IMG/VR virus record: IMGVR_UViG_3300034101_006325
Location: 124,001-188,000 of that record
Strand: one strand, 5' to 3'
DNA: 64,000 bases
DNA from: a virus
Position numbers and translations under genes: made by a program. The notes under the pieces are model-generated. The model ran no database searches, had not been told where the DNA came from, and was given only the letters and a program-made list of their open reading frames with translations. Positions 32,194-48,584 of this stretch are shown in pieces (position 1 is the stretch's first letter; each line of letters starts with the position of its first letter).

Positions 32194-32207
32194 TTATATA
32201 AAAATTC

Positions 32208-32822
32208 ATGACAAATCAATGGCAAAATTATTTAAACAGTAATTGCAAAATTATTGCAACAATATCGACAAAAAATAATGCAAATTCAATTTATGAATGC
32301 ATAAAAAAAACACTGCCGCATTTTGAGGCAGTGTTTGTTATAGACAATGGATCTTCTGACGATACTCAAAAAGAAATTTACAAATTTATAAGAAGAGAAA
32401 GAAGTAAAAATTTATTTATTTTTGATTATTCTCATAATAAACATTGGCAAACACTACCAGAAAGTGAAATACTTGACTTGTCAAGAATGAAAGCAAATGA
32501 GTTTATTGCTACATCTATGATTAATGTACCTCACTTGTGGGCATCTTTAAGACCTAACATTATGCTTGGCCCAAATACAAGAGAATTAATTTTAGAAAAT
32601 TGTTTTAATTGGACAAAGCCCGAATTAAATCATAATTTTTATAGAACATCAAATGGCAATTGGTCAGTGTCAATTACTTTTAAACAAGGAAAGCTGATGG
32701 TGGGACCAGATTCTGCCAATCCGGCTGAACCTTGCTTTTATTTAAAAAATGAAGAAAATATATTGAAAACAAAATTTGATGAAAGTCAACATTCGTCTAT
32801 TATAATTGGAGAAGAAGTATGA
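32208..32822 (+). CDS. Short GT2-like glycosyltransferase
   Basis: A 204-residue protein. The first 90 residues match the nucleotide-binding half of a GT-A fold: IIATISTKNNANSIYECIKK followed by VFVIDNGSSDDTQKEIY. The usual DxD is not clear, and the C-terminal acceptor half is short, so it may be a reduced or specialised member. It overlaps the next gene by four bases. A strong hairpin lies inside its coding sequence (32308-32336). Confidence 0.65.
   Translation: MTNQWQNYLNSNCKIIATISTKNNANSIYECIKKTLPHFEAVFVIDNGSSDDTQKEIYKFIRRERSKNLFIFDYSHNKHWQTLPESEILDLSRMKANEFIATSMINVPHLWASLRPNIMLGPNTRELILENCFNWTKPELNHNFYRTSNGNWSVSITFKQGKLMVGPDSANPAEPCFYLKNEENILKTKFDESQHSSIIIGEEV
32308..32336 (+). repeat. 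Perfect 10-bp intragenic hairpin with flanking A and T runs
   Basis: AAACACTGCC, a 9-base loop GCATTTTGA and GGCAGTGTTT form a perfect stem. An eight-A tract overlaps its 5' side and a T-rich stretch follows its 3' side. The outline resembles a factor-independent terminator, but it lies about 100 bases into a glycosyltransferase gene. It could attenuate transcription of the island or be chance. Confidence 0.6.
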
Positions 32823-34620: not shown

Positions 34621-35498
34621 AAATTTCTGCAGCAATGATTGTTTTAAACGGTGACCATGTGTTGCAACAATCTTTAGCAAGTATTTATAATTTTGTTGAT
34701 GAGATTGTAATTGCAGAAGGTCCTGTTAAATTTTGGCAGTCTAAAGGGATCACAAAATCTACAGACAACACATTGGAAATAATAAAAAGCTTTCATGACC
34801 CTTCCAGAAAAATCAAATTAATTTCTTCTCAATATGAAGAAAAGAACGAGCAATTCACGGCAGCATTAAATTTATTGTCAAGTAATCCAAATTATCTTCT
34901 ACAAGTCGATGCAGATGAGGTATGGACCGAAGAATCTTTAAAAAATCTTAAAAATTTATTACAAGATAGGCAACCAGTATCTGTAGGCATCCATTCAAAT
35001 ACTTTTGTTGGAGGATTTGACAGAGTCATCTCAGGCTTTGAAGAAAATACAGATAATTTTTTAAGAGTTTTTAAATGGGAAGATGAATGCAAATTTATAA
35101 CACATCGACCGCCAACTATTAGATACAAAGATGGCAATCAAACAAGAGGTAAAAATCACATAGATTCAGACGAAGCAAGAGATTATTACAATATCTCAAT
35201 GTGTCATTATTCTTATGTGTGGCCTTCTCAAGTCAAATCAAAAATAGAATATTACAAAGCTAAAGTCTCTATGCAAAATTGCATACCTGATTTTTATGAA
35301 AATTACTGGCTCCCGTGGACTAAATCAACAACAATTGAAGAAAAATGGGAAATTGAAAAAAGAATAATGGGAATGCATGAATTTAGACCTGAAGTTAGAG
35401 GACCAGCATTTACTAAAGAATTTAAAGGTACGCATCCAATACAAATTACCAACAATAAATTAAATTTATTAAATAGAATTAAGAAAGAAATAGAATAA
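34617..35498 (+). CDS. GT2 family glycosyltransferase
   Basis: A 293-residue GT2-type transferase resembling those that decorate lipopolysaccharide cores. The start KISAAMIVLNGDHVLQQSLA is followed by FVDEIVIAEGP and then YLLQVDADEVW with the DxD-type acidic motif. An extended C-terminal region (NISMCHYSYVWPSQVKSKIE) follows. It ends directly against the next gene (TAA then ATG). Donor and acceptor cannot be read. Confidence 0.8.
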   Translation: MKISAAMIVLNGDHVLQQSLASIYNFVDEIVIAEGPVKFWQSKGITKSTDNTLEIIKSFHDPSRKIKLISSQYEEKNEQFTAALNLLSSNPNYLLQVDADEVWTEESLKNLKNLLQDRQPVSVGIHSNTFVGGFDRVISGFEENTDNFLRVFKWEDECKFITHRPPTIRYKDGNQTRGKNHIDSDEARDYYNISMCHYSYVWPSQVKSKIEYYKAKVSMQNCIPDFYENYWLPWTKSTTIEEKWEIEKRIMGMHEFRPEVRGPAFTKEFKGTHPIQITNNKLNLLNRIKKEIE

Positions 35499-36239
35499 AT
35501 GGTTGCTTCATCTTATGCTATAGGAACAAATCCGTGGAATAGAGATGATATGATAAGTCATCTTAAAGAATTTTTAAATATTTATAAAAACAAACCAATA
35601 GATGACAACAGTGGGGGACAAAAAGCTGCTCAACTTTTTTATTCATGGTATGTTGTAAAAAAAATTAAACCAAAAATTATTATTGAAAGCGGAGTATTTA
35701 AGGGACAAGGAACATGGGCATTTGAACAAGCTTCACCCGAATCTGAACTAATATGTTTAGATCCGTATTTGGAAAAATGGGGCGGTTATAGATCAAAAAA
35801 ACCGCAATATCTTCAAAAAGATTTTAAAGAAATTAATTGGGACCACATTGAAGATAAATCTAATGTTTTGTGTTTTTTTGATGATCATCAAAATGCATTT
35901 AATAGAATAGTTCAAATGAAACTTTTTGGTTTTAAAGTTGCAATGTTTGAAGATAACTACCCAGAAGGGCATGGAGACTGTTTATCTTTAAAGAAAATAT
36001 TTGAAAATTCAGAGGCCTATCAAATATTGCCAGAATTAACATGCAAAGATTATCTTGAAAAAGTTGTAAAATGCTATCATGAACTTCCGCCTATTTGTTC
36101 TCTAGCAAAAACAAGATGGAATACTGAATGGAACGATTATCGTTCTAACAAACCCTTGCTTGAAGAATTAAATGATGAATTAGTTATTTTTCAAGATGAA
36201 ATGGATCAGTATACTTGGATAAATTATGTTGAGTTATAA
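35499..36239 (+). CDS. Putative class I SAM-dependent methyltransferase-like protein
   Basis: A 246-residue protein. The stretch KPKIIIESGVFKGQGTWAF resembles the glycine-rich SAM-binding loop of class I methyltransferases, followed by LICLDPYLEKWGG with an acidic strand end and NVLCFFDDHQNAFNRI, where a metal or acceptor site might lie. Such folds also occur in cephalosporin-hydroxylase-like proteins, so methylation is a guess. It lies within the sugar cluster. The start follows the previous stop directly. Confidence 0.6.
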   Translation: MVASSYAIGTNPWNRDDMISHLKEFLNIYKNKPIDDNSGGQKAAQLFYSWYVVKKIKPKIIIESGVFKGQGTWAFEQASPESELICLDPYLEKWGGYRSKKPQYLQKDFKEINWDHIEDKSNVLCFFDDHQNAFNRIVQMKLFGFKVAMFEDNYPEGHGDCLSLKKIFENSEAYQILPELTCKDYLEKVVKCYHELPPICSLAKTRWNTEWNDYRSNKPLLEELNDELVIFQDEMDQYTWINYVEL

Positions 36240-36256
36240 TGTAAAGAGTTATTGCT

Positions 36257-36859
36257 ATGAGTTGGCAAGAGTCTGATAAAATTGTAGATCAAATGATCAG
36301 AGGATCCAATGGATCTCTGTGGGGATTTAAATTAGAACAATCAAGTCATTTTCCTATTCTAGAAAAATTATTAAAAATCTCAGGACAAAAAGATCTACTT
36401 GTTGACATTGGATGTGGAGCAGGAGATGTTTCACGTTCTTGGAATGGAGATTATCTTGGAGTTGATTTAGACTGGGTTATAAAAAGAGTATCAAGAATTT
36501 GCAATCCTAGTAAAACTTTTTTAAGTCTAGACATTACGTCTAAAGATACTTTTTATGATATTCCTAAATCTAATTGTTTGCTAATGAATGCATTTCTTGA
36601 CGTTCAAGAAAATCCTTTAGAAGTTCTTGAAAAATTTTGTAGACAAGTTGATACAAACTGGATAATTGTTCATAGGCAAAGAATAAGGAATATTGAAAAA
36701 ACAAAAATTGAATATGTTCCTGGCTACGGCGGTTCTTTAATACCTTCTTCTGTTATTTCTTTTAAAGAAATAAATGATATTAAACAAAAATATTCTAAAG
36801 AATTTTTAATTGGATTGTGGGAAAATGATTGGTATTCATTTGCAATGAGAATCAAATAA
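36257..36859 (+). CDS. Class I SAM-dependent methyltransferase
   Basis: A 200-residue protein with the SAM motif I LLVDIGCGAGDVSRSW and the acidic strand-2 end YLGVDLDWVIKR. A middle segment (LLMNAFLDVQENPLEVLEKF) matches the usual methyltransferase layout. The acceptor is probably a sugar hydroxyl or amino group, given the surrounding genes. Its stop overlaps the start of the DegT-type gene (TAATG). Confidence 0.8.
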   Translation: MSWQESDKIVDQMIRGSNGSLWGFKLEQSSHFPILEKLLKISGQKDLLVDIGCGAGDVSRSWNGDYLGVDLDWVIKRVSRICNPSKTFLSLDITSKDTFYDIPKSNCLLMNAFLDVQENPLEVLEKFCRQVDTNWIIVHRQRIRNIEKTKIEYVPGYGGSLIPSSVISFKEINDIKQKYSKEFLIGLWENDWYSFAMRIK

Positions 36860-37920
36860 TGAAATTTGTAGATCTACAATTTGAAAATAAAAATGCAAAA
36901 CTATCATCAAAAAATAGTTTTAAACTTATTGAAAAAACTGGAAAGTATCTTCTTGGAGAATATTTAGAAAATTTTGAAAATCAATTTGCTAAGGATCAAG
37001 ATAAAAAATATTGCATAGGCGTAAAAAATGCGACGGATGCGCTTGCAATATCATTTAAAGCTCTTGGATCAGAAAATAGAACCGTTATTATTCCTCAATT
37101 TGGTGCATATCCTACTGTGATGGCAGCGATTCAAGCTAATTCAAAAAATATAATAGCTGCTCCCGTAGATGAAACTTTATGTCTTAATCTCGAGGATGTT
37201 AAAATACCAGATAATAGCATAATCGTTCCTGTCAATCTATTTGGAAATGAATCAAATTTAACTTACTTAAGAAAAAGAGCAGATGAAACAAATAGTCATA
37301 TTGTAGAAGACTGTGCTCAATCAACAGGAATTCCTAATAATAATCTAAGTGATGTCTCTATTCATAGTTTTTATCCTACTAAACCGCTTGGTTGTCAAGG
37401 AGATGGCGGGGCAATTCTCACGAATGATGAAAGAATTGCTAAATTCTGTAAACAAGCAAGATTTTATGGTCTTAATGATGGAATAATTGATTCCTGGGGT
37501 TTTAATAGTAGAATGGACGAGTGGCAATCCTGCTTTTTAACATCAAAACTATCATACTATAGAAATTTAAATGACACTAGAAAAGAAAATGCAAATTTAT
37601 ACAATCAAATTCTAAATAAGAGCATTAGATACACAGAAAATTGCGTTTATCATCAGTATGTAAGTCTTTGGAAGGATAGAAAGTATATTCAAAAAAAATT
37701 ATCAGAAAAAGGCATTCCTACGATGATTCATTACCCTAAAATGTTAATTGATATGCCATACCTTCGGGACAAAGTTAAATTTGTCAATGAGTGTCCAAGA
37801 GTTTCTGATTATATTCTGTCAATTCCAGTGGGGCCACATCTTACAAATCAAAATATTAAAAAAATAAAAAAAGAAATCAATAGCTTAAAGAGTAATTTAA
37901 TTGATTTTAAAGAAATTTAA
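36859..37920 (+). CDS. DegT/DnrJ/EryC1 sugar aminotransferase (FdtB/QdtB-like)
   Basis: A PLP-dependent transaminase of nucleotide-sugar ketones. The true start is ATG 36859 (MKFVDLQFENKNAKLSS). The longer reading from 36829 overlaps the upstream gene. The 353-residue protein has GVKNATDALAISFKALG, VEDCAQSTG (Asp151 contacts PLP) and SFYPTKPLGCQGDGGA, with Lys175 as the Schiff-base lysine. The MKFVDLQ start resembles the FdtB/QdtB group, which aminates dTDP-3-keto-6-deoxyhexoses. GDP-perosamine synthase is an alternative, because gmd is the next gene. Confidence 0.88.
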   Translation: MKFVDLQFENKNAKLSSKNSFKLIEKTGKYLLGEYLENFENQFAKDQDKKYCIGVKNATDALAISFKALGSENRTVIIPQFGAYPTVMAAIQANSKNIIAAPVDETLCLNLEDVKIPDNSIIVPVNLFGNESNLTYLRKRADETNSHIVEDCAQSTGIPNNNLSDVSIHSFYPTKPLGCQGDGGAILTNDERIAKFCKQARFYGLNDGIIDSWGFNSRMDEWQSCFLTSKLSYYRNLNDTRKENANLYNQILNKSIRYTENCVYHQYVSLWKDRKYIQKKLSEKGIPTMIHYPKMLIDMPYLRDKVKFVNECPRVSDYILSIPVGPHLTNQNIKKIKKEINSLKSNLIDFKEI

Positions 37921-37929
37921 AATTTCTTT

Positions 37930-37958
37930 TTGACACTACGCTAAAAAGACTATCATAA
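37930..37958 (+). promoter_or_regulatory. TTGACA-containing element before gmd (weak promoter candidate)
   Basis: TTGACACT (37930-37937) lies in a 39-base gap and is followed after 15 bases by TATCAT or after 17 bases by TCATAA. The gap is one of the few in the island. However, the predicted start point would fall at or inside the gmd start codon, which weakens the case. The same TTGACACT occurs before phoH. Confidence 0.25.
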
Positions 37959-37959
37959 A

Positions 37960-38925
37960 ATGAAAAAAGCATTTATCACAGGAATTACAGGACAAGACGG
38001 ATCATACTTGACAGAATTACTCCTTCAAAAAGGATATTCTGTAATTGGAATAAAAAGAAGAACTTCTGTATTAAATACTTCCAATATAGATCATCTATAT
38101 GAAAATCCTAATCTTAAACTTTTTTATGGAAACATGAATGATGTTGGATCAATGTACCGATTGCTTTCAGAACATCAGCCCGATGAAGTTTACAATTTAG
38201 CAGCTCAATCACATGTAAGAACATCGTTCGATGTGCCAGAAGAAACAGTTGATGCAGTTGCAATGGGAACAATGAGATTATTAGAAGCTTGTAGGAATAT
38301 TGTTCCAAAAGTCAAGTTTTATCAAGCTTCTTCTTCTGAAATGTTTGGAGATAATACTGAAGAATTAAAAAATGAAGACACGAGAATGTCTCCCGCATCA
38401 CCTTACGCTGCCGCAAAACTTTTTTCACATAATTTAGTTAGAAATTACAGATTAGGTTATGGAATGCACGCATCGTCAGGAATTCTTTTTAATCATGAAT
38501 CACCACGGAGAGGTGAAACTTTTGTTACAAGAAAAATTACGAGAGCTGTTGCTAGAATAAAGCTTGGAAAACAAAATATTTTAAAACTTGGAAACATGGA
38601 TTCATATAGAGACTGGGGATTCGCTGGAGATTATGTCGAAGCTATGTGGCTTATGTTACAACAAGATACTCCTGATGATTATGTTATTGCTACGGGTGAA
38701 ACACGTACAGTCAGAGAATTTGTTGAAAAAACATTTGAATTGGCAGGTTTAGATTATAAAAAATATATTCAGATTGATCCTAGACTTTATCGACCCCACG
38801 AAGTACCTCATCTTCTAGGCGATGCTTCAAAAGCTAAAAAAATATTAGGATGGAAACCAAAACATACTTTTGATGATTTGATAAAATTAATGTATGAGTC
38901 AGATCTAAAAAATGAACTTATTTAA
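37960..38925 (+). CDS. gmd: GDP-mannose 4,6-dehydratase
   Basis: Converts GDP-D-mannose to GDP-4-keto-6-deoxymannose, the precursor of GDP-fucose, GDP-rhamnose and GDP-perosamine. The 321 residues show ITGITGQDGSYL, IGIKRRTSVLNTSNIDHLY, AAQSHVRTSFDVP, the catalytic ASSSEMFGD and SPYAAAKLF (Tyr-x-x-x-Lys), NHESPRRGETFVTRKI and GETRTVREFVE. These are diagnostic of Gmd. It is slightly short at the C-terminus. No GDP-fucose synthase is seen nearby, so the keto-sugar may be aminated by the DegT enzyme or reduced by a host enzyme. Confidence 0.93.
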   Translation: MKKAFITGITGQDGSYLTELLLQKGYSVIGIKRRTSVLNTSNIDHLYENPNLKLFYGNMNDVGSMYRLLSEHQPDEVYNLAAQSHVRTSFDVPEETVDAVAMGTMRLLEACRNIVPKVKFYQASSSEMFGDNTEELKNEDTRMSPASPYAAAKLFSHNLVRNYRLGYGMHASSGILFNHESPRRGETFVTRKITRAVARIKLGKQNILKLGNMDSYRDWGFAGDYVEAMWLMLQQDTPDDYVIATGETRTVREFVEKTFELAGLDYKKYIQIDPRLYRPHEVPHLLGDASKAKKILGWKPKHTFDDLIKLMYESDLKNELI

Positions 38926-38950
38926 TGAATAAATTTAAATACAGTAAACT

Positions 38951-39322
38951 ATGTTAAATTTTGATGATTATACACGTGCAATCGACGATAGAGGGAAATT
39001 ATTTGCATTTAATAAATTGCAACAGTTTGATATAAAAAGAGTCTATTTAATAGAACCAGAAAAAAATATCTGGCGCGGAAAACACTTTCATAAAGAATGC
39101 ACACAAATAGTTCTAGTATTCAATGGAGAATTATTTTGCAAAGTCATTAATGAAAATACAAAAGAAGTGAATGAATTTGTGATGCCCGCAGGGACATCTT
39201 TTTGTCAGACTCCTGGTCTAGCTTTTTGTTTTAAAGCAAACTTAGAAGATACCAAAATCTTAGTTCTCTCTAATAGAGAATTTGATAAAAATGATTACTA
39301 TGAGGTATCACTAGGTGTCTAG
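38951..39322 (+). CDS. FdtA/WxcM-like cupin sugar ketoisomerase
   Basis: A 123-residue cupin. The pattern IDDRGKLFAFNKLQQFDIKR, WRGKHFHKECTQ and FVMPAGTSFCQTPGL matches FdtA/WxcM-type dTDP-4-keto-6-deoxyhexose 3,4-ketoisomerases, with catalytic His residues in the RGxHxHK segment. This enzyme moves the keto group so that a DegT-type transaminase can add a 3-amino group. Together with the RmlB-like and DegT-like genes it completes the chemistry for dTDP-3-amino-3,6-dideoxyhexose. It overlaps the next gene by eight bases. Confidence 0.82.
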   Translation: MLNFDDYTRAIDDRGKLFAFNKLQQFDIKRVYLIEPEKNIWRGKHFHKECTQIVLVFNGELFCKVINENTKEVNEFVMPAGTSFCQTPGLAFCFKANLEDTKILVLSNREFDKNDYYEVSLGV

Positions 39323-39953
39323 CATCATAACAAACTCTTGGAATTCTTTTTCAGAAGAATATTCTAAAAATTATTTGAATGATGCTGATTCAGTACTTCC
39401 CAAGACTCTTTCAAATTTTATATTTAAAGAATTTAATACACCTAATTTAATCGATATAGGTTGCGGGAACGCTAGATTCTACAATTATTTGCTAAATGAA
39501 AAAAGAGATTTTAGCTATGAAGGTTTTGATATATCAGCCCCACTCATAAATGCAGCTAAAATTAAATATGAAAAAAATAAAAATTTTTATTGCAAACTAG
39601 TTGATTCTAGTCTGTCTGATCTAAGACAAATAAATAAAAAATTTGATATAGCTGTATGCACACATCTTGTAGAACTTTGTGAATCGCCAGAAAATCTTTT
39701 TTATACAATGACAAATTTGTCAGATACAGTCGCTGTAATATGGTATGAGTATCCAAGATTTGAATATACGCAGTTAGAAATTAGAAACTACGTAAGTCAT
39801 GACATGCAAGAAAAAAAGATAATTACTCCTTATCTTAGAAATAGATATTCAAAATATTATTTGAAATTTTTAATGGATCGTTTCAGCCTTAAATCAATTC
39901 ATAAAATTTCCATATCTGAAAAAGATGTTTTAGAAATTTATAAAAAAATATGA
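39315..39953 (+). CDS. Class I SAM-dependent methyltransferase
   Basis: A 212-residue protein starting at GTG inside the end of the FdtA-like gene. SAM motif I is PNLIDIGCGNARFYNYL, followed by FSYEGFDISAPLINAAK and the post-I segment FDIAVCTHLVELCESPENL. It may methylate a sugar, for instance on an N-, O- or C-position of the deoxyhexoses made nearby. An N-acetyltransferase, which the FdtABC pathway would need, is not seen here. Confidence 0.8.
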   Translation: MSSIITNSWNSFSEEYSKNYLNDADSVLPKTLSNFIFKEFNTPNLIDIGCGNARFYNYLLNEKRDFSYEGFDISAPLINAAKIKYEKNKNFYCKLVDSSLSDLRQINKKFDIAVCTHLVELCESPENLFYTMTNLSDTVAVIWYEYPRFEYTQLEIRNYVSHDMQEKKIITPYLRNRYSKYYLKFLMDRFSLKSIHKISISEKDVLEIYKKI

Positions 39954-40528
39954 GAAAAGAAACGTTACAGATTATAAAAAATCTGAATAAAAATTTTAAA
40001 GGTGAATATGTTTATGATATGGGTGGCGGCTACAATCCCGTAACTTCTGACATTGTTGGAAATAAAAAAATAAAAGTAGTCGACTATTTTTCAGGGCCAA
40101 AAGTAGACATTATTGACGATCTAACAAAATTAAATTCGATAGAATCGAACTCTGTTGATAATATTTTTTGCTCTGATGCACTAGAACATGTAATTGAACC
40201 CTGGAATGCAATCAAACAATTTCATAGAGTTTTAAAAAATGATGGCATATTGTTTGTTACTGTTCCTTTTATTTGGCATTTTCATGGTCATGAAATTCAA
40301 AAAGAAAATTGGAAAAGTAGGGTTGATTTTTGGCGATTTACACCACAAGCACTAGAGTCTTTGTGTTTTAAGTATTTTGAAAAAATTGATTGCAATTGGG
40401 ACTTGGAACCGCCTCTTGGTCCCCAAGAATTACCAATATGGCGTTGCGGCGTATATTACATGGGCAAAAAACTTTCAAGTATAAGAAAAGAAGATTATAC
40501 ACTAGAAATAACTAGAGACAATTGGTAA
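39950..40528 (+). CDS. Class I SAM-dependent methyltransferase
   Basis: A 192-residue protein. YVYDMGGGYNPVTSDI forms a SAM-binding loop, followed by KVVDYFSGPKVDIIDD, then FCSDALEHVIEPWNAIKQFH and VLKNDGILFVTVPF, a typical Methyltransf_11-like order. It overlaps the upstream gene by four bases (ATGA). It probably acts on a glycan or glycolipid intermediate. The specific acceptor is unknown. Confidence 0.82.
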   Translation: MRKETLQIIKNLNKNFKGEYVYDMGGGYNPVTSDIVGNKKIKVVDYFSGPKVDIIDDLTKLNSIESNSVDNIFCSDALEHVIEPWNAIKQFHRVLKNDGILFVTVPFIWHFHGHEIQKENWKSRVDFWRFTPQALESLCFKYFEKIDCNWDLEPPLGPQELPIWRCGVYYMGKKLSSIRKEDYTLEITRDNW

Positions 40529-40530
40529 AC

Positions 40531-41598
40531 ATGGCTTGTATTATTAAAATACCTGACGAAAACTCAAAAGGTGTCGTTACATTCACCACACAAGAAAGAG
40601 ACAAATTAATTTTTAATGATAAAGCAATTTTTGAAAAAATTGTTACTTTAAAAAAAGATTATATAGTTGGTCTTCATCACAATTGGCATGATTACAACTT
40701 TAGATATCATCCTTTGTTTGATTTTAGTATGGCTGGGGAGGGAGATCTTGGCAATTCGGAAGTTCCTCTTATAACTTTAGATGCATGCAATTTCATTCCA
40801 GAAGAATTTCATTCATCGACAGGAGAAAAATTTTGGGATGTAGTCTATGTTACACGTGCTGTCTATTTTAAAAGAGTCGATCTTTTCTTCAAGGCTATAA
40901 AGAAAATTTATGACACAGGTAAAAAAATAAAAGTATTACTTGTTTGTTGCATCCCTCCAGAAGATGCAACTCCTAAAAATGTTATTGAAGACTATCTTTC
41001 AACTTTTAACGAAGAAGAAAGAAAATATTTTACTTTTCTACCATTAACACATGATTATCCTTTTTGTCTAGATCCGGCATCAATAGGATTTTTTTATAGA
41101 TCCTCAAAGATATTTGCCCACTTTGCTAATGATGAAAGAAGATGCAGAGTAGTAGCAAATGCCGCTGCAACATGCATGCCAATAGTTTGTATGTCTGACC
41201 CTGCTTCAATTATTCCAGAACATTTAAAAAAGCCACCATACTGTTATATTGTTAAAAGTGATGATGATTTTTCAAATAAAATTATTCAATCACTTAATGA
41301 ATATGATGAAAATAAAAATTTATTTGAATTATCAAAACATTTTAGTGTAAAACATACAAAACAAGAACTTAAACAACAATTAGAAAAATTTTTAAAAATT
41401 TCAAAAGATAAAATGTTAGATTCTTCTTTTAATTTTTTTAATCTTGACATTAGACTTGGAAGACATCACAGCATCAGCTACGGACCAAATAAAGTCAATA
41501 TGTCTTTAGATGAATTTTCTAAAATATTGCTTGATAAACAAAATTTAAGTTTAATATGGGATTCTTCTTGTAAAGATTTTGAAAAGAAAATTTCATGA
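40531..41598 (+). CDS. Putative GT-B-like glycosyltransferase or sugar-island protein
   Basis: I prefer ATG 40531 (MACIIKIPDENSKGVVTFT) because the TTG at 40522 would precede the upstream stop. The 355-residue product has a middle segment FWDVVYVTRAVYFKRVDLFF and a possible donor-side region (KIFAHFANDERRCRVVANAA, then CMPIVCMSDP) resembling the C-terminal half of GT-B transferases. The characteristic EX7E motif is not obvious, so the call is tentative. A small palindrome follows its stop. Confidence 0.55.
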   Translation: MACIIKIPDENSKGVVTFTTQERDKLIFNDKAIFEKIVTLKKDYIVGLHHNWHDYNFRYHPLFDFSMAGEGDLGNSEVPLITLDACNFIPEEFHSSTGEKFWDVVYVTRAVYFKRVDLFFKAIKKIYDTGKKIKVLLVCCIPPEDATPKNVIEDYLSTFNEEERKYFTFLPLTHDYPFCLDPASIGFFYRSSKIFAHFANDERRCRVVANAAATCMPIVCMSDPASIIPEHLKKPPYCYIVKSDDDFSNKIIQSLNEYDENKNLFELSKHFSVKHTKQELKQQLEKFLKISKDKMLDSSFNFFNLDIRLGRHHSISYGPNKVNMSLDEFSKILLDKQNLSLIWDSSCKDFEKKIS

Positions 41599-41615
41599 AT
41601 CAAAATCATTTTGAT
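41599..41615. repeat. Intergenic 17-base inverted repeat
   Basis: ATCAAAAT-C-ATTTTGAT, two perfect 8-bp arms around one base, begins immediately after the stop at 41598. It lies 13 bases before a promoter-like element and 51 bases before the PhyH-like gene that opens the sialic-acid-like module. It could be an operator for a dimeric regulator. There is no T-run for a terminator. Confidence 0.45.
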
Positions 41616-41627
41616 CCAAATTAAAAT

Positions 41628-41655
41628 GGGACAATTGTTTGTTAATTCCTATAAG
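41628..41655 (+). promoter_or_regulatory. Candidate promoter for the PhyH-GT29-NeuA-NeuB module
   Basis: GGGACA (four of six match to TTGACA) and TATAAG (five of six match to TATAAT) are separated by 16 bases and end 11 bases before the ATG at 41667. This is one of the larger gaps in the island and comes just before a run of tightly coupled genes, which makes an internal promoter plausible. The -35 match is weak. Confidence 0.35.
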
Positions 41656-41666
41656 TAAGAAATTAT

Positions 41667-42362
41667 ATGCATAATATTCATTTAAATTCAATTAATGAAA
41701 AAGGTTATGCATTAATTCCTAATTTTTTAGGAAGCAATGAAGTCAAAAATTTAAAAAATAGCTTATTCAAAATATACAGCAACTATAGATTAGGTGATCA
41801 GATAGAAATACCCGGAATGTCTACGCCTAAGCAATATAGTACTGGAAAATCCATGAGAATTTATCCTCCTGCATATTGTAATTTTTCTGAAATTGAAAAT
41901 TTTAAGAAAGATTGGCTCACACAACTTACTGATGCTTTTTTTGAAGGAGCAAATAATAAAGGACTTCAAGTATTTTCTTCATATGAAACATTGTCTTACA
42001 GAGAAGTCAACGAATTACCTAGAAATTCTCACATGCACGTAGATCCATATCATTCTCTTAAATTTTTTAGTTATTTGACTGATACAACCAAAGAGAATGG
42101 CGCACTTCAATTAATTCCGGGTACAAGCTGGATTGGCAAAAAAATAAGAAAAGAAAACAGCATTAATGAACTATTGACCAGCGATTTATATACCTTTAAA
42201 AAAAGCAATTATTATAATTCTGATCTTGAAAAAGAAACTACTTTTATCGAAGGTAAAGCTGGCGATCTAATAATTCTAGATACAGATACTGTGCATTGTG
42301 GGGGTATTCTTGTAAAGCCAGGGCTAGAAAGACTTACAATAATCTATCACAATAGGAAATAG
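41667..42362 (+). CDS. PhyH-type Fe(II)/2-oxoglutarate dioxygenase
   Basis: A 231-residue dioxygenase. The HxD...H iron site is visible as SHMHVDPYHS and a late DTDTVHCGGILV, with LERLTIIYHNR supplying a possible 2-oxoglutarate Arg. The middle contains LTDTTKENGALQLIPGTSW. Phytanoyl-CoA-hydroxylase-like enzymes hydroxylate small molecules or lipids. Here, inside a sugar island, a sugar, lipid carrier or glycan moiety may be the substrate. It is followed immediately by the GT29 gene (one base gap). Confidence 0.85.
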   Translation: MHNIHLNSINEKGYALIPNFLGSNEVKNLKNSLFKIYSNYRLGDQIEIPGMSTPKQYSTGKSMRIYPPAYCNFSEIENFKKDWLTQLTDAFFEGANNKGLQVFSSYETLSYREVNELPRNSHMHVDPYHSLKFFSYLTDTTKENGALQLIPGTSWIGKKIRKENSINELLTSDLYTFKKSNYYNSDLEKETTFIEGKAGDLIILDTDTVHCGGILVKPGLERLTIIYHNRK

Positions 42363-42363
42363 T

Positions 42364-42963
42364 ATGAAAACTTGTGCCATTGTAGGAAATTCTTCTTGTT
42401 TATTGGATAAAAGTTATGGAAGTTTTATCGATAGTCATGATGAAGTTATAAGATTTAACATGGCACGAACAAGAGGATTTAAAAAATATGTTGGAACAAA
42501 AACGACAATAAGATTTTGTAATCAACACATTGTTATGTCCAATTTTTCAGACGATTATTTAAAAGAACAGCTTAAAGTCTTTCCAGAATGGGACAATAAA
42601 GAAATTCTAACGTGGGAAAAACAAAAATTATTTTTTAAATATAGCAAAGAGCTTAAAGGAACAGAGCTTGAATCTCAGTTGTTTTCTAAAAACAATGAGA
42701 TTTACTACATAAGTGATTTAGAAATAATAAAATTAAAAAGAAAATTAAATGTAGAACCTACAATGGGGTTAGTGGGATTAGATTATGCTTTGACATTTTT
42801 TAGTACAATAAATTGCTTTGGTTTTGATTTTTATAAAAATCAAAACAGATCTTTTCATTATTTTGAAAAAACAATACCTTATAAATCTTGCCATGATCAT
42901 AAAGAAGAAAAGAAATTCTTCAAAGATGCTGAAGAATCAGGAAAGATAAAAATTTATAGATGA
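42364..42963 (+). CDS. GT29-type sialyltransferase-like glycosyltransferase
   Basis: The sequence carries the signatures of GT29 sialyltransferases, best known from animals. The L-sialylmotif region is KTCAIVGNSSCLLDKSYGS, then FIDSHDEVIRFNMARTRGF and VGTKTTIRF (residues 3-51). The S-sialylmotif-like stretch is EPTMGLVGLDYALTFFSTIN followed by CFGFDF (about 131-156). The VS-type motif is SFHYFE with His165 and Glu168. At 199 residues it is compact and lacks a membrane anchor. These enzymes transfer CMP-activated nonulosonic acids. The two next genes make such a donor, which strongly supports the call. Acceptor unknown. Confidence 0.85.
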   Translation: MKTCAIVGNSSCLLDKSYGSFIDSHDEVIRFNMARTRGFKKYVGTKTTIRFCNQHIVMSNFSDDYLKEQLKVFPEWDNKEILTWEKQKLFFKYSKELKGTELESQLFSKNNEIYYISDLEIIKLKRKLNVEPTMGLVGLDYALTFFSTINCFGFDFYKNQNRSFHYFEKTIPYKSCHDHKEEKKFFKDAEESGKIKIYR

Positions 42964-43586
42964 AAATATTGATTCCTGCACGAATGGGATCCAAAGGATT
43001 CCCTAAAAAAAATAGAATTTTATTTGATTATACTGCTAGAATTATTCCTAAAGATTTCATTAAAAATACAGTAGTTTCGACAGATGACCCTGAAATTGTC
43101 AAAATGGCTGAATCTTATAATTTCTTAGTTCATCATCGATCAGAAGAATTATCAAGAGATGAAACTTCTACAAAAGAAGTAGTTGAATCTTTTTTAAAAC
43201 AAGAAATTATTGATGATAATTCAAAGTTAACAGCGCTTTTATATTTGACTTATCCGCAAAGAAAATGGGATGATGTTGTCAGAGCAAAAGAATTGATTGA
43301 TAGCTCTAAATCAAAATCTTTGCTATGTGCATTTGACATCGAGGCACATCCATTTTTAATGGCATTTGAAATGCCAGGTCATAGAGGAAAACAATTATAT
43401 AAACACAATTTATATAGAAGACAGGATTATCCTAAATGTTTTGAAATATCACATTTTGTATGTATGTTTTATGACGATGAAGTAAAAAATTTAAATAATA
43501 ATCTCTATAATGAAGACACATATTTTATGAAATGTAATAAAAAGGTAGATGTTGATCTACTAGAACATTTTTTAAAAATACAATGA
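42960..43586 (+). CDS. neuA: CMP-nonulosonate (NeuA-like) cytidylyltransferase
   Basis: Activates a nonulosonic acid with CTP. The 208-residue protein has the P-loop-like ILIPARMGSKGFPKKN at the N-terminus, VVSTDDPEIVKMAE and RDETSTKEVVESFL, followed by a late AHPFLMAFEMPG and CNKKVDVDLLEHF. This order matches CMP-NeuAc synthetases and related KdsB-type enzymes. Its position between a GT29 transferase and NeuB favours sialic or similar acids over Kdo. Both gene junctions overlap by four bases. Confidence 0.88.
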   Translation: MKILIPARMGSKGFPKKNRILFDYTARIIPKDFIKNTVVSTDDPEIVKMAESYNFLVHHRSEELSRDETSTKEVVESFLKQEIIDDNSKLTALLYLTYPQRKWDDVVRAKELIDSSKSKSLLCAFDIEAHPFLMAFEMPGHRGKQLYKHNLYRRQDYPKCFEISHFVCMFYDDEVKNLNNNLYNEDTYFMKCNKKVDVDLLEHFLKIQ

Positions 43587-44401
43587 AAAAAATTAAAATT
43601 ATTGCAGAAATTGGAATAAATCACAACGGCAGTGTTGAGTTGGCAAAAAAGATCATTGCAGTGTCTGCAGCAGCAGGCTGTGATTATGTTAAATTTCAAA
43701 AAAGAAACCCAGATGTATGTGTACCAGAAGATCAAAAATTAAAAGTTAGGTCTACTCCGTGGGGAGAAATGACGTACATTGACTATAAGAAAAAAATTGA
43801 ATTTGAAAAAGAACAATATGATGAAATTGACAAATTTTGCAAACAATTAGGCATTAAATGGTTTGCGTCTGCGTGGGATTTATCTTCTCTTGATTTTTTA
43901 AAAAGATATTCAGATGTTGTAAAGATTCCATCAGCACTTATTACAAATGAAGAACTTTTATTGAATGCAAGAAAAAAATTTGATTTTCTTTTAATATCAA
44001 CTGGCATGAGTACTGAGTCTGAGGTAGAAAATGCAGTTAAAATTTCAAATCCCGATGTAATTTTTCATACTAACTCAAGTTATCCTAGCAAAGTTGAAGA
44101 TTTAAATTTAAACTACATAAAACATCTAAAAAATAAGTTTAATAGAACGGTGGGTTATAGTGGACATGAATTTGGACTTGTTACAACATTTGCAACTGTA
44201 CCTTTGGGTGTCGAATGGATAGAAAGACATGTCACTTTAGATAGAGAAATGTGGGGATCTGATCAAAAATCATCTGTAGAACCATCGGGTATTTACAAGC
44301 TTGTCAAAGGAATACGGGATATAGAAAAATCATTAGGAAGTATTGGGCCAAGAGTAATTTGTAAAGAAGAATTAGAAAAGAAAAAATCACTTAGAGGTTG
44401 A
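43583..44401 (+). CDS. neuB: NeuB-like nonulosonic acid synthase without SAF domain
   Basis: Condenses phosphoenolpyruvate with an N-acetyl-hexosamine (phosphate) to form a nine-carbon sugar acid. The TIM barrel is clear: IIAEIGINHNGSVELAKKII, CDYVKFQKRNPD, ASAWDLSSLDFL, LISTGMSTESEVE, FHTNSSYPS, VGYSGHEFGL and WIERHVTLDR, followed by GSDQKSSVEPSG. The protein ends at residue 272, just after the barrel (EELEKKKSLRG). Typical NeuB proteins continue to about 340-350 with a C-terminal antifreeze-like SAF domain that contributes to the partner's active site. The stop is followed by a coupled HAD gene, so the shortening looks stable rather than a window effect. Confidence 0.9.
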   Translation: MKKIKIIAEIGINHNGSVELAKKIIAVSAAAGCDYVKFQKRNPDVCVPEDQKLKVRSTPWGEMTYIDYKKKIEFEKEQYDEIDKFCKQLGIKWFASAWDLSSLDFLKRYSDVVKIPSALITNEELLLNARKKFDFLLISTGMSTESEVENAVKISNPDVIFHTNSSYPSKVEDLNLNYIKHLKNKFNRTVGYSGHEFGLVTTFATVPLGVEWIERHVTLDREMWGSDQKSSVEPSGIYKLVKGIRDIEKSLGSIGPRVICKEELEKKKSLRG

Positions 44402-44403
44402 AT

Positions 44404-44709
44404 GTGTTAATTTACGTAGATATTGATGAAACAATCTGCAATACGCCTGACGATAGAAACTATTTAAAGTCTACACCCATAAAAAAAAATATAAAAATTA
44501 TAAATTCTCTTCATGAAAAAGGCCATCAAATTGTTTATTGGACTGCAAGAGGAACAGTCACAGGAATTGATTGGTCAAATGAAACTATTAGACAGTTAGA
44601 CGAATGGGGTGTCAAAAGAACAAAAGTTCTTTTTGGAAAGCCAGCATATGATTTATTCATATGCGACAAAGCGATTAATTCAAATGTTTTTTTTAATTTA
44701 ACTCAATAA
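44404..44709 (+). CDS. Small HAD-family phosphatase
   Basis: About 101 residues starting at GTG 44404, which has AGAGG six bases upstream. An in-frame TTG at 44398 has no spacing to that site. The HAD motifs are YVDIDETICNTP (nucleophile and acid Asp), VYWTARGTV (motif II), FGKPAYD (motif III Lys) and FICDKAIN (motif IV Asp). It follows NeuB directly, so a sugar-phosphate such as a nonulosonate 9-phosphate is a plausible substrate, replacing the eukaryotic-style phosphatase step. This is inference from position. Confidence 0.8.
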   Translation: MLIYVDIDETICNTPDDRNYLKSTPIKKNIKIINSLHEKGHQIVYWTARGTVTGIDWSNETIRQLDEWGVKRTKVLFGKPAYDLFICDKAINSNVFFNLTQ

Positions 44710-44722
44710 GGCATATTAATTT

Positions 44723-45229
44723 ATGATCAAACTTTTACCGATGATGCAATTGGAAGAGCTAAATCTTCTCGAAAAATATCTTGATAAAGAAAAAGTGATT
44801 TGCGAATACGGCTCAGGCGGTTCTACAAATTGGCTTTCAGAAAGAACCAAATTTGTATATTCAATAGAACACAACAAAGAGTGGTATGATAAAACAAAAA
44901 GTAGTTTGTCAAATAGAGAAAATGTAGAAATTTTTTATGTCCCAAGTTTTAATTGGGACCCAAGCACCGAAGGAAATATTGATAGTTTTGAAAACTACAT
45001 TAATATGCCAGGAACTTTAAATATAGATTTTTCTTTCTTTTTAGTGGATGGCAGAGCTAGAGTTGACTGTTGCAGGTTTATATCAAAAAAATTTCCAACA
45101 GCTATTATTGCTTTTCATGACTATACCAATAGAGCAAATGATGTTGAGCACAATTATTCAAGAGTCTTAGAACATTTAACTTTAATTGAAACCTGTAAAA
45201 CTCTTGCAATTTTTAAAAAGAAAGTCTAA
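44723..45229 (+). CDS. Putative SAM-binding methyltransferase-like protein
   Basis: A 168-residue protein. VICEYGSGGSTNWLSE resembles a SAM-binding loop, with FVYSIEHNKEWYDKTK as the acidic strand-2 region, then FSFFLVDGRARVDCCRF and IIAFHDYTNRAND at the expected positions of later motifs. Small size and a missing clear acceptor domain make the activity tentative. It closes the tightly packed sugar module, with a 57-base gap before the nuclease gene. Confidence 0.65.
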   Translation: MIKLLPMMQLEELNLLEKYLDKEKVICEYGSGGSTNWLSERTKFVYSIEHNKEWYDKTKSSLSNRENVEIFYVPSFNWDPSTEGNIDSFENYINMPGTLNIDFSFFLVDGRARVDCCRFISKKFPTAIIAFHDYTNRANDVEHNYSRVLEHLTLIETCKTLAIFKKKV

Positions 45230-45286
45230 ATAAAATAAAAATTATTCTAATGAACTAAGAGACACAACCATCTTATATTTGAGTCA

Positions 45287-46102
45287 ATGGAATCAAATCT
45301 GTCATTAGAAACTTTACCTACAGGAAAACCTCATGTTTCATTTTCTGAGGTAAAGTTATGGAAAGAATGTTCTTTTAGACATCATCTTGTTCATGTCAAA
45401 AAAATTGATTTATCTAAGCCCTCGCCCGTTTTAGATTTTGGCACAGCTGTTCATGCTTCTTGTGAAAAATATCTTTTGACAAGAGAGATGGACTACCAAG
45501 TAGCTTTTAAACATTTGGACGATGCCTGGAAAAAACATGAAGGAATTGTAGAATTCAATGCTTTGTCATTGGAAAAAGCAAAGCAAGAAGCTACACAAAT
45601 TCTTTTAGAAGTGCCTGCTTTTCTCGACAAAGAATTTCCAGGATGGGAAGTCGTTGATGCTGAACATCAGCTTTATGAAGCAGTTGAAGGCCATCCTCAC
45701 GCTTTCAAAGGATTCATCGACGGAGTTATAAAAGCCAAAGGGAAAAGAGGTGAGACAATCTATTGGATTCTGGATTGGAAGACAACGATTAGAGGCTGGC
45801 TTAGAGAAAAAAGATCTGATGAAATGGTTAAGTCACAATTGGCACTCTATAAAAACTACTGGTGTCAAAAAAATCCTGAAATTCAATTTAAAGATGTCAG
45901 ATGCGGTTTCGTCCTTTTAAAAAAATCTGCAAAACCAGGAGAACATTGTGAACTTTTTTCTGTTTCACTTGGAGAAGTTCCTATTAAAAGGTCTTTAAAG
46001 GTCGTTAGCAATATGCTTACTTCTGTAAAGAGAGGTATTGCTTTGAAAAATAGAGACTCTTGTACTTATTGTGAATACAAAAATACCAATCATTGCACAT
46101 AA
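45287..46102 (+). CDS. Cas4/RecB-like PD-(D/E)XK exonuclease
   Basis: A 271-residue nuclease. The N-terminus HVSFSEVKLWKECSFRHH contains Cys28. The nuclease core has FGTAVHASCEKYL, FKGFIDGVI (Asp), WILDWKTT (DxK) and SQLALYKNYW (Q-x-x-x-Y). The C-terminus has SCTYCEYKNTNHC, giving Cys259, Cys262 and Cys270. The four cysteines fit an iron-sulphur cluster as in Cas4 and AddB. It probably processes single-stranded or broken DNA. It lies between sugar genes and GT4 genes, away from the other recombination genes. Confidence 0.85.
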   Translation: MESNLSLETLPTGKPHVSFSEVKLWKECSFRHHLVHVKKIDLSKPSPVLDFGTAVHASCEKYLLTREMDYQVAFKHLDDAWKKHEGIVEFNALSLEKAKQEATQILLEVPAFLDKEFPGWEVVDAEHQLYEAVEGHPHAFKGFIDGVIKAKGKRGETIYWILDWKTTIRGWLREKRSDEMVKSQLALYKNYWCQKNPEIQFKDVRCGFVLLKKSAKPGEHCELFSVSLGEVPIKRSLKVVSNMLTSVKRGIALKNRDSCTYCEYKNTNHCT

Positions 46103-46131
46103 TTTATTTTTGATAGCATTAATTTTTATTA

Positions 46132-46148
46132 CAACTTTTAAAAAGTTG
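46132..46148. repeat. Intergenic 17-base inverted repeat
   Basis: CAACTTTT-A-AAAAGTTG, perfect 8-bp arms around one base, in the 60-base gap before the GT4 gene at 46163. It has the same geometry as the repeat at 41599-41615, though not the same sequence. A TAATAT/TATAAC stretch follows at 46150-46158. It may be an operator. No T-run follows it. Confidence 0.4.
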
Positions 46149-46162
46149 GTAATATAACGTGG

Positions 46163-47410
46163 ATGAAGAAAAAAACGATTTTAATGCTATCAGATCATCC
46201 TTTGTCTACTTCAGGCGTAGGCACACAGGCAAGATGGTTAATAACAGGTTTAATCAACACTGGTAAATATAGTTTTAGATGTTTTGGTGGTGCTGTTAGA
46301 CACGATAACTACGATCTTAACGTAGTAAGTCCTGATTTTGTCATTAAACCGACAAATGGTTTTGGTGATAGAAATCTTTTAAGAAAAACTCTAGCACAAT
46401 TAAAACCCGACGCTCTTCTTCTCTTTACGGATCCAAGATTTTTTATTTGGACTTGGGAAATGGAGGATGAGATTCACCAAGTCTGTCCTATTGCTTATTG
46501 GCACTTATGGGATAATGGACCTTGGCCGGAATTTAATAGGGCACTATACGCGTCCAATGATTTGATCAATTGCATTAATTATCCGACCTATGAGATGGTC
46601 AAAGAACGTTTTCCAGATAGGACAAATTATATTCCACATGCTGTCCCAAAGGATCTTTACTATCCTTTACCTGACGAAGAGGTAAAAAACTTTAAAAGAA
46701 ATCTTTTAGGCAAAGATAAAGAAGATCATTTTGTTGTGGGATATGTTAGTAGAAATGCCCGTCGAAAAATGCCAAGTGACATTATTGTTTCTTGGAAAAT
46801 GTTTATTGATGAGCTAAAGAAAAAGCATGGGCACACAAAAGCCAGTCTTGTCATGCATACAGAGCCTTTAGATCCGGAAGGACCTAACTTACATCATGTA
46901 TTAGATTCATTGGACGCGAAAGATCATGTTGTTTTTTCTAATAAACGTGTAAATTTTCAAGAAATGAATGTGATATACAACATATTCGATACAATCGTTA
47001 ATAGAAGCTCTAATGAAGGTTTTGGACTTCCTACACTAGAAACAATGATGTGTGGCAAACCAATTATTGCAATAAAGACAGGCGGTTTAACGAGACAAGT
47101 CGAAGATCCTGATACGGGTTTTCAACACGGCATAGCGTTGGAACCTGAAATAAAGTCTTTGGTGGGAAACCAAATGGTTCCTTACATTTATGAAGATTTC
47201 ATAAGCCACAAAACTTTGGCAGATGCATTTATGAAAATGTACGAAATGGGTCCTGAAAAAAGAAAAGAACTTGGACAAAAAGCAATGCAGCATGCGCACA
47301 AAAATTACAATATTGACAATATGATAAAAGATTGGGATTCTTCTTTGACCAAATTAATTGACAATTGGCAAGAAGGCAAAAACAAGAGATGGACGCACGA
47401 GGAGATTTGA
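46163..47410 (+). CDS. GT4 family glycosyltransferase
   Basis: A 415-residue GT-B enzyme. The N-terminus contains MLSDHPLSTSGVGTQARWLI, typical of acceptor-side domains. The C-terminal domain has GYVSRNARRKMPSDIIVSWK and the EX7E-type donor motif NEGFGLPTLETMMCGKPII, then TGGLTRQVEDPDTG. It probably retains stereochemistry. The product could extend the glycan built by the upstream island. The following GT4 gene begins just after the stop. Confidence 0.88.
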   Translation: MKKKTILMLSDHPLSTSGVGTQARWLITGLINTGKYSFRCFGGAVRHDNYDLNVVSPDFVIKPTNGFGDRNLLRKTLAQLKPDALLLFTDPRFFIWTWEMEDEIHQVCPIAYWHLWDNGPWPEFNRALYASNDLINCINYPTYEMVKERFPDRTNYIPHAVPKDLYYPLPDEEVKNFKRNLLGKDKEDHFVVGYVSRNARRKMPSDIIVSWKMFIDELKKKHGHTKASLVMHTEPLDPEGPNLHHVLDSLDAKDHVVFSNKRVNFQEMNVIYNIFDTIVNRSSNEGFGLPTLETMMCGKPIIAIKTGGLTRQVEDPDTGFQHGIALEPEIKSLVGNQMVPYIYEDFISHKTLADAFMKMYEMGPEKRKELGQKAMQHAHKNYNIDNMIKDWDSSLTKLIDNWQEGKNKRWTHEEI

Positions 47411-47411
47411 A

Positions 47412-48584
47412 ATGAAAAAAGCAATTCTTAGAGGACCTTCTCTCACACAATCCGGTTATGGCGTTCATTGTAGACAAGTTGCATCTTGGCTCTTGTCAAA
47501 AAAAGATTGGGATGTCAAATTCCAAGCTCTGCCATGGGGAGATACCCCGTGGTTATTAAATGAAAAATCAAATGATGGTTTGATTGATAGAATTATGAAG
47601 AATACTGTGGACCTATCTGACAGTAATTCTAATTATGACATCTCCTTTCAATTACAGCTTCCTAATGAATGGGATCACAAACTTGCAAAATACAATGTTG
47701 GAATGACTGCAGGAATTGAAACTGATATTTGCAATCCTGTGTGGATAGACTGCTGTAATAAAATGGATTTAGTCATAGTTCCTTCAAAGCACGCAGAAAA
47801 TTCATTAAAAAATTCAGGAAAAATTAACACACCAATTCAAATAGTACCAGAATCGTTTTGCAATGAAATTTTAGACGAAACAAGCACAGATCTTTTGAAA
47901 AATTTCCCTACATTTAGCACAAATACTAATTTTCTGGTATTTGGACAGATTACAGGGGACAATCCCATGAATGATAGAAAGAATATTTTCTTCACTATTA
48001 AATGGTTTTGTGAAGTCTTCAAAGATGATCCTGATGTAGGTCTTGTAATAAAGACAAATATCGGTAGAAATACTCAGATTGATAAAAAGAAAACGTTAGA
48101 ATTGATGTCAATCATTGTAAAAGAATGCAGAAAAAGTCAATTTCCTAAAATTCATATTATTCATGGTGACATGACAGACAAAGAAGTTGCTGCGTTATAC
48201 AAGCATCCTCAGATTAATGGATTTATTTCCCTAACAAGAGGAGAGGGATATGGCCTACCCCTGTTGGAAGCAGCAGCTAGCGGGCTACCAGTTATTGCCA
48301 CAGGTTGGTCGGGACATATGGACTTTTTATCCCGAGGAAAGTTTATTGAAATAGACCACGATGTGAAAAAAATACATGCATCAAGAGCAGACAATAAACT
48401 ATTCATGCCTGAAGCAAAATGGGCTGAAGCAAATGAAGATGACTTCAAGAAAAAAATCGTAAAATTTAAAAATTCTCAAGCAAAACCCAAAGAATGGGCA
48501 AAAGAATTAGAATTAATCATTAAAGAAAATTATAGTCAGGAATCAATTTTTAAATACTATGACAAAGTAGTTGAAAATATATGA
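47412..48584 (+). CDS. GT4 family glycosyltransferase
   Basis: The start is ATG 47412 (MKKAILRGPSLTQSGYGVHC), with GGAG upstream. A longer reading from 47358 lies inside the preceding gene. The 390-residue protein has VPSKHAENSLKNSG, a donor domain beginning FGQITGDNPMNDRKN and the EX7E motif RGEGYGLPLLEAAASGLPVI, followed by ATGWSGHMD. It resembles its upstream neighbour in layout (xxSGxGxxxR near the N-terminus). The next gene overlaps its stop (ATGA). Confidence 0.88.
   Translation: MKKAILRGPSLTQSGYGVHCRQVASWLLSKKDWDVKFQALPWGDTPWLLNEKSNDGLIDRIMKNTVDLSDSNSNYDISFQLQLPNEWDHKLAKYNVGMTAGIETDICNPVWIDCCNKMDLVIVPSKHAENSLKNSGKINTPIQIVPESFCNEILDETSTDLLKNFPTFSTNTNFLVFGQITGDNPMNDRKNIFFTIKWFCEVFKDDPDVGLVIKTNIGRNTQIDKKKTLELMSIIVKECRKSQFPKIHIIHGDMTDKEVAALYKHPQINGFISLTRGEGYGLPLLEAAASGLPVIATGWSGHMDFLSRGKFIEIDHDVKKIHASRADNKLFMPEAKWAEANEDDFKKKIVKFKNSQAKPKEWAKELELIIKENYSQESIFKYYDKVVENI

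Follow-up and report, generated by a model that had tools for sequence, protein, structure and literature searches.

A phage gene module with a GT29-family transferase and a candidate nonulosonate pathway of the phosphorylated type

Known pathways and layout of the phage module

The Kdn pathway of Bacteroides thetaiotaomicron takes three steps starting at mannose-6-phosphate, and we know of no GT29 enzyme connected to it. Its enzymes are given, in a later account of the original work, as a Kdn-9-phosphate synthase, a Kdn-9-phosphate phosphatase and a CMP-Kdn synthetase (Wang 2008, cited in PMC7845648), and in known pathways Kdn is made from mannose-6-phosphate and phosphoenolpyruvate (PMC7845648). 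The neuA-neuB capsule loci KL1 and KL2 of Serratia marcescens yield mainly Kdn, and the NeuB encoded there has an extra sugar phosphate isomerase/epimerase domain (PMC9000132). The literature on GT29 covers bacteria, protists, plants and animals. The family is patchily present in bacteria, with 23 bacterial sequences reported in a study that does not mention viruses or phages (PMC5811610), and for the plant enzyme RCKT1 CMP-Kdo has been proposed as the donor (PMC11288761). Phage GT29 was found there only as one bare count among the viral genes of a coral virome (PMC11656804). Automatic GT29 annotations are also present in BFVD for squirrelpox, chelonid herpesvirus, ChoanoV1 and an uncultured Caudovirales (A0A6J5NLG3), and thus GT29 in phages is not unseen. 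A description of a phage pathway comprising both donor synthesis and transferase was not found in the literature searched, most subscription journals being outside the search.

We analyzed a window of 64,000 nucleotides, bases 124001-188000 of a 200,303-base IMG/VR virus record. The record contains a terminase, with Flavobacterium phage immuto (40%) and Microcystis phage Mel-JY01 (43%) as nearest named relatives; it encodes baseplate wedge and hub proteins, and no tRNAs were found in it. The virus is therefore a large phage, most likely with a contractile tail. The module consists of four genes at 42364-44709 on the plus strand (Table 1). The sequence-only reading had described them as tightly coupled genes for a transferase, a CMP-activating enzyme, a synthase and a phosphatase, and indeed the open reading frames lie at the coordinates it gave and neighbouring genes overlap by 4 bases three times (42960-42963, 43583-43586 and 44398-44401). 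The phosphatase gene probably starts at GTG 44404 and not at TTG 44398, because the N-terminus of the family fits the former. None of the window's GT29, NeuA and NeuB proteins had a match in PHROGs.

Table 1. Positions of the module genes and of features in the surrounding cluster (window coordinates)
Feature	Position	Strand	Description and basis
Co-directional cluster, 24 genes	29079..48584	+	Pfam scans, NCBIfam, hydropathy, gene spacing
DegT-type sugar aminotransferase, another sugar pathway	36829..37920	+	NCBIfam PseC 93.6 bits, below cut-off 423.5
GDP-mannose 4,6-dehydratase	37960..38925	+	PF16363, 441.5 bits
GT29-family transferase	42364..42963	+	199 aa, predicted soluble; VS-motif His177 and Glu182, motif III His165-Tyr166; PF00777
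Putative CMP-nonulosonate synthetase, NeuA/PseF kind	42960..43586	+	208 aa; CTP_transf_3, PseF, PDB 6ifd
NeuB-family nonulosonate synthase	43583..44401	+	272 aa, without SAF domain; K37-x-Q39-K40-R41; Pfam NeuB
Predicted HAD sugar-phosphate phosphatase	44404..44709	+	About 101 aa; ORF as called from TTG 44398; invariant residues, fold

Enzyme families and their coupling across phages

The first gene product matches the Pfam profile PF00777 with E=3.5e-27 and 95.9 bits (cut-off 23). All four sialylmotifs, L, S, III and VS, can be recognized both in an alignment of relatives and in a profile alignment to mammalian ST3GAL1, showing that the L-, S- and VS-like segments noticed in the sequence are real. 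Residues I22, R30, G44, G135, G153, H177 and E182 are invariant among 41 phage and bacterial GT29 relatives, and His165 of motif III is invariant or nearly so. The profile of these 41 relatives aligns with ST3GAL1 (E=1.1e-32), starting at the L motif and covering almost all of the remaining sequence; in this alignment H165-Y166 corresponds to motif III and H177/E182 to the VS motif. The AlphaFold (AF2) model has the GT29 fold with a pLDDT of 94.1; the best 30 Foldseek matches in the PDB are all mammalian GT29 enzymes, with TM scores (query) of 0.49-0.71 and identities of 18-24% in the fold alignments. No transmembrane stretch was predicted by hydropathy, as expected for the soluble enzyme that had been proposed. 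The earlier description of the family as animal-type is overstated, since GT29 occurs patchily in bacteria, too, and a plant enzyme of the family exists. Cys4 of the L motif is present and the S-motif Cys is absent in the alignment, and the L-S disulfide is thus missing. This disulfide does not define the family, because it is an opisthokont trait and bacterial GT29 enzymes are reported to be likewise without it (PMC5811610). Membership of GT29 is thus confirmed by profile, motifs and modelled fold, and transfer activity is predicted. Phylogenies were calculated as quick trees without bootstraps. In the GT29 tree, the bacterial sequence L167 is a neighbour of the window's protein, and two mammalian sequences (fragments) fall among the phage enzymes on a branch without firm support.

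The second gene product matches Pfam CTP_transf_3 (E=8.6e-11, 42.5 bits, cut-off 22.6) and the CMP-Neu5Ac synthetase in PDB entry 6ifd (E=9e-14). The best NCBIfam model is PseF with 53 bits, below the equivalog cut-off of 205.7, and KdsB models reach 20 bits or less. The proposed NeuA-type cytidylyltransferase is therefore supported in its kind, as a putative CMP-nonulosonate synthetase, and not in its substrate. For the third gene product the match to Pfam NeuB (PF03102) is strong (E=2.7e-65, 220.7 bits, cut-off 22.1); the best NCBIfam model, NeuB_NnaB (TIGR03569, the Neu5Ac synthase equivalog), gives 215.2 bits and does not reach its cut-off of 399.65. The synthase is a member of the NeuB family, as its profile scores show, and not of the curated Neu5Ac-synthase equivalog. 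No KdsA-type match was found for it in Pfam or NCBIfam. The NeuB barrel of the sequence-only reading is thus upheld, and with PseF and NeuB as the best models and KdsB matching only weakly, neither enzyme falls into the Kdo group. None of the outcomes that the sequence-only reading had named as refuting it came about.

The SAF domain of NeuB provides an arginine that touches the N-acetyl group. This C-terminal domain is absent from the phage synthase, which consists of the barrel only; the same library detects SAF in L074 and L167. The motif K-x-Q-K-R is invariant in 41 aligned synthases and was found in 81 sequences, while three longer phage synthases carry H-F, T-Y or T-H there, and the solved Neu5Ac, Pse and SpsE synthases have other residues at the place of the motif. 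The K-x-Q-K and W-G-x-T-Y region, which we take to resemble human NANS, was not counted as evidence. In the quick tree, the K-x-Q-K-R synthases group with the bacterial sequences L187, L190 and L202 at a support of 96, and the solved enzymes lie outside this clade; one row within it has M-R instead. Since L167 contains both the motif and SAF and falls outside the clade, K-x-Q-K-R was rejected as a pure marker of SAF loss. The phage synthase is part of this subgroup with K-x-Q-K-R and without SAF, which is linked to operons of the Kdn-9-phosphate type.

The fourth gene product matched Pfam HAD families below cut-off only. Residues D8, D10, T49, K81, D85 and D90, comprising the DxD, T, K, D set, are nevertheless invariant in 30 sequences, and the predicted fold is that of HAD enzymes, with AfhF of phage HY126 (9iqw), a D-arabinose 1,5-diphosphate phosphatase according to its PDB entry, as the nearest structure. 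The phosphatase that had been read from this gene is borne out by the complete catalytic set and the fold; it would be a sugar phosphatase of the EcbF/AfhF kind, with its activity predicted. The Kdn-9-phosphatase model NF058599 found no match anywhere in the phage's own record.

Scanning viral contigs for NeuB yielded 91 relatives, of which 80 were kept, corresponding to 59 distinct loci without near-copies. NeuA was present in 50/59 of these loci, HAD in 53/59 and GT29 in 21/59. A scan with the single GT29 sequence gave no match in viral contigs, whereas the alignment-based scan retrieved 196 relatives; among the best 80 loci, which were used, 62 were distinct, and they contained NeuA in 34 and NeuB in 23 cases. 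Some contigs are shared between the scans started from NeuB and from GT29. The GT29 scan of the genome collection was carried out with alignment A3, as A2 was too loose. GT29 and NeuA are adjacent in 21 of the 34 loci having both, compared to 4.7 expected when genes were shuffled within loci. Among the GT29 loci, 23/35 of those with NeuA or NeuB contained HAD, compared to 0/27 of those with neither; the calculated p value of 1.7e-8 is optimistic, because the loci are related and those without NeuA/NeuB are somewhat shorter (on average 12.2 versus 15.1 kb). A HAD-NeuA fusion lies directly behind GT29 in phage locus L142, and the 484-kb phage genome LR756508 encodes a NeuB with 53% identity, a NeuA with 39% identity and five GT29 genes. 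No cultured phage with the cassette was found among named isolates. The module is conserved and does not belong to the window's phage alone, and the linkage statistics back the claim that the genes form one functional module. Coupling of these genes across many phages thus adds to the enzyme families, the catalytic residues and the GT29 and HAD folds described above.

The sugar and its acceptor

With the enzyme classes observed, we infer the sugar and the acceptor. The NeuB-family synthase would join phosphoenolpyruvate to an aldose 6-phosphate, in all likelihood the host's mannose-6-phosphate, giving Kdn-9-phosphate; the HAD phosphatase would release Kdn, the NeuA-like enzyme would activate it to CMP-Kdn, and the soluble GT29 would transfer Kdn from CMP-Kdn, with inversion, onto a glycan terminus. 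A phosphorylated intermediate is likely. That the sugar is Kdn, as operon context and motif suggest, may be right or wrong with about equal probability, and an even chance is also what we give to the module as a phosphorylated-type nonulosonate pathway coupled to its own GT29. The Kdn route is suggested by the synthase clade, the bacterial operon context, the missing NeuC, the Serratia precedent and the supply of mannose-6-phosphate. Regarding the latter, the phage has its own GDP-mannose 4,6-dehydratase, and GDP-mannose, hence mannose-6-phosphate, should therefore be available in the infected cell. A phage-own D-lyxose/mannose isomerase was considered as substrate source and rejected, as none was found in the phage's own record. 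The same 200-kb record contains no gene of the NeuC family, in agreement with the sequence-only reading. Its conclusion that a hexosamine precursor has to be imported does not necessarily follow, because the SAF-less K-x-Q-K-R synthase subgroup is linked to operons of the Kdn-9-phosphate type and the HAD enzyme fits a NeuC-free phosphorylated route. Altogether, 44/50 records searched, which are fragments or of unknown completeness, were without a NeuC-family gene.

Several observations run against the Kdn route. The phage HAD lies outside the Bacteroides Kdn-9-phosphatase family, and the solved enzyme closest to it has arabinose 1,5-diphosphate as its substrate; the small HAD does not always adjoin NeuB and might act in the synthesis of a different sugar of the cluster; L167 shows that K-x-Q-K-R and the loss of SAF do not strictly go together; and NeuC-like genes are found in 6/50 records.

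Alternatively, the module might follow a classical Neu5Ac (or Leg/Pse) scheme, in which NeuC-type enzymes of the host provide the synthase with a 2-epimerised hexosamine that is not phosphorylated, either ManNAc or a diamino relative, while the HAD serves another sugar of the cluster and the GT29 moves an N-acetylated sugar. The best NCBIfam models (NeuB_NnaB, and PseF for the cytidylyltransferase), the Epimerase_2 genes in the six records mentioned and the aminotransferase and dehydratases within the cluster point in this direction. However, these scores are far under the curated cut-offs (215 versus 399.65 and 53 versus 205.7), the synthase is without SAF, the own record is without NeuC, and the HAD is linked to NeuA/NeuB and in L142 even fused to NeuA, so that we regard this scheme as unlikely. 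Very improbable is a Kdo system, in which the GT29 donor would be CMP-Kdo or another eight-carbon acid: it could draw on the proposal for plant RCKT1 (PMC11288761) and on CTP_transf_3 spanning both KdsB and NeuA, but the synthase belongs to the NeuB family without a KdsA-type match, PseF (53 bits) outscores KdsB (20 bits or less), and in the PDB the cytidylyltransferase is related to CMP-sialate synthetases.

The acceptor has to be seen in the context of the 24-gene cluster. It encodes glycosyltransferases, the enzyme of the GDP-mannose-4,6-dehydratase type and a related dehydratase, a DegT-type aminotransferase, an FdtA-like and a PhyH-like protein and methyltransferases, and it ends close to baseplate genes. 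No membrane protein or transmembrane stretch was predicted in the cluster by hydropathy, and PF02397 (initiating transferase) and PF01943 (flippase) found no match in the record. The acceptor glycan may be assembled in the cytoplasm by other glycosyltransferases of the cluster, with Kdn as its cap. Because the cluster is without membrane protein, neither a flippase nor an initiating transferase was matched in the record, and the baseplate genes are near, the best candidate for the acceptor is a virion protein. Such an acceptor, modified in the cytoplasm and carried out with the virion, is the simplest reading, and we consider it about as probable as its opposite. Bacterial nonulosonates are mostly surface glycans, and with either sugar the phage might instead remodel the lipopolysaccharide or capsule of its host by adding a cap to cytoplasmic lipid-linked glycans, which would serve superinfection exclusion or protection. 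Bacterial GT29 genes stand among glycosyltransferase genes and a soluble transferase could work at the inner membrane, which fits such remodelling; the three features named for a virion acceptor argue against it, although export by the host could still serve. We hold host remodelling to be possible, with somewhat less than an even chance. Hypermodification of phage DNA, with the CMP-sugar going onto modified bases like arabinose in some T4-like phages, is extremely unlikely. The relationship of the HAD to the HY126 D-arabinose 1,5-diphosphate phosphatase would suit it, and arabinosylated DNA is known from a T4-like phage (PMC6024577). But the GT29 is structurally related to glycan sialyltransferases, the cluster has several glycan-type glycosyltransferases and sugar-nucleotide enzymes, and the same cassette is found in bacteria beside glycosyltransferase genes.

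The broadest reading, that phages widely synthesize Kdn and attach it by a eukaryote-like logic, sialylating their virions, is doubtful. If it were true, phages would own a complete set of genes both for making the donor of sialic-acid-type sugars and for transferring it, a soluble minimal GT29 of 199 aa would be available for study, and virion sialylation could be tested in environmental phages; bacterial viruses may then use such sugars as a coat for themselves or for their hosts. Many new sequences would also bear on how eukaryotes acquired GT29, and if the phage Kdn pathway is true, the GT29 sequences of phages and bacteria would be a direct handle on the origin of the eukaryotic family.

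Comparison with bacterial operons and other systems

In bacteria, the operon L187 from a Lentisphaeria MAG contains NeuB, GT29, an unknown protein, NeuA and HAD; against a cut-off of 180, this HAD scores 178 bits with the Kdn-9-phosphatase model, and with the equivalog of KdsC, a near relative, it reaches 121 (cut-off 208). L190, from a Lachnospiraceae MAG, is an operon of the same NeuB/GT29/NeuA type, and in L196, also from a Lachnospiraceae MAG, NeuA is fused to a Kdn-9-phosphatase-like domain (165 bits, below the cut-off of 180). As in the phage module, these three loci have a SAF-less K-x-Q-K-R NeuB, NeuA and GT29 close together, and the HAD adjoins NeuA (L187) or is fused to it (L196). 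In contrast to the phage enzyme of the EcbF/AfhF kind, their HAD belongs to the KdsC/Kdn-9-phosphatase family; the functions of the bacterial proteins are predicted. L167 differs in having a NeuB-SAF-isomerase-like architecture.

Compared by pathway description, the phage would use the same three proposed steps from mannose-6-phosphate as Bacteroides thetaiotaomicron, whose Kdn-9-phosphatase model, however, finds no match in the phage record. NeuA and NeuB are shared with Serratia KL1 and KL2, and NeuC is not mentioned in that paper; but these are capsule loci with the additional NeuB domain, and a sialyltransferase or GT29 is not mentioned either (PMC9000132). If the proposal holds, the module would share with the eukaryotic NANS/NANP/CMAS/GT29 pathway the phosphorylated route, the phosphatase, CMP activation and GT29 transfer (PMC5811610, PMC10225777). 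The eukaryotic transferases are type II membrane enzymes of the Golgi with an L-S disulfide, whereas the phage GT29 is predicted to be soluble and is without the S-motif Cys. The GT29s of eukaryotic viruses would take a donor produced by the host cell; the phage module, in contrast, would make its own. By analogy, the phage module would thus come closest in its working to the bacterial operons that combine GT29 with Kdn-9-phosphatase-like enzymes, and in its logic it would resemble the eukaryotic pathway.

Genes flanking and within the module of the window

For the HAD gene, GTG 44404 is a likelier start codon than TTG 44398, as the protein begun at this GTG fits the family N-terminus MIIYVDIDET. 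A PhyH-like dioxygenase is encoded upstream of GT29, relatives of which were also found near NeuB in two further loci (L056 and L074), and it is possibly a sugar-modifying enzyme.

Selected features of the window and of related phage loci
Feature	Location	Strand	Remark
PhyH-like dioxygenase	window 41667-42362		one base upstream of GT29
NeuA-HAD fusion gene	L142:8588-9568	+	phage contig
GT29	L142:7992-8603		adjoins the fusion gene
Long phage NeuB with C-terminal cupin	L088:9341-10804; L106:9144-10667; L060:6093-7562
Array of seven GT29 genes	L151:2716-8555		single phage locus

GT29 gene arrays and GT29 without donor genes nearby

Five GT29 genes are arrayed in a single locus of phage genome LR756508 (L005), and this array and that of L151 suggest several linkages or acceptors. 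Phage loci L119, L144, L147, L156, L158, L159 and relatives carry three GT29-like genes each, with NeuA and NeuB absent within ~8 kb of these; the donor of this branch may be a host CMP-sugar or another.

Domain fusions in phages and bacterial operons

The L142 fusion protein combines NeuA (residues 3-216) with a small EcbF/AfhF-type HAD (229-318). All three long phage NeuB proteins (487-507 aa) match Pfam Cupin_2, those of L088 and L106 also weakly matching D-lyxose isomerase; in these two loci GT29 and NeuA precede the cupin-bearing NeuB. Operons with SAF-less NeuB, GT29, NeuA and a Kdn-9-phosphatase-like domain, in L196 fused to NeuA, were found in MAGs of Lachnospiraceae (L190, L196) and Lentisphaeria (L187). 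L190 also combines GT29, GT4 and MptE-like domains in one protein of 1246 aa.
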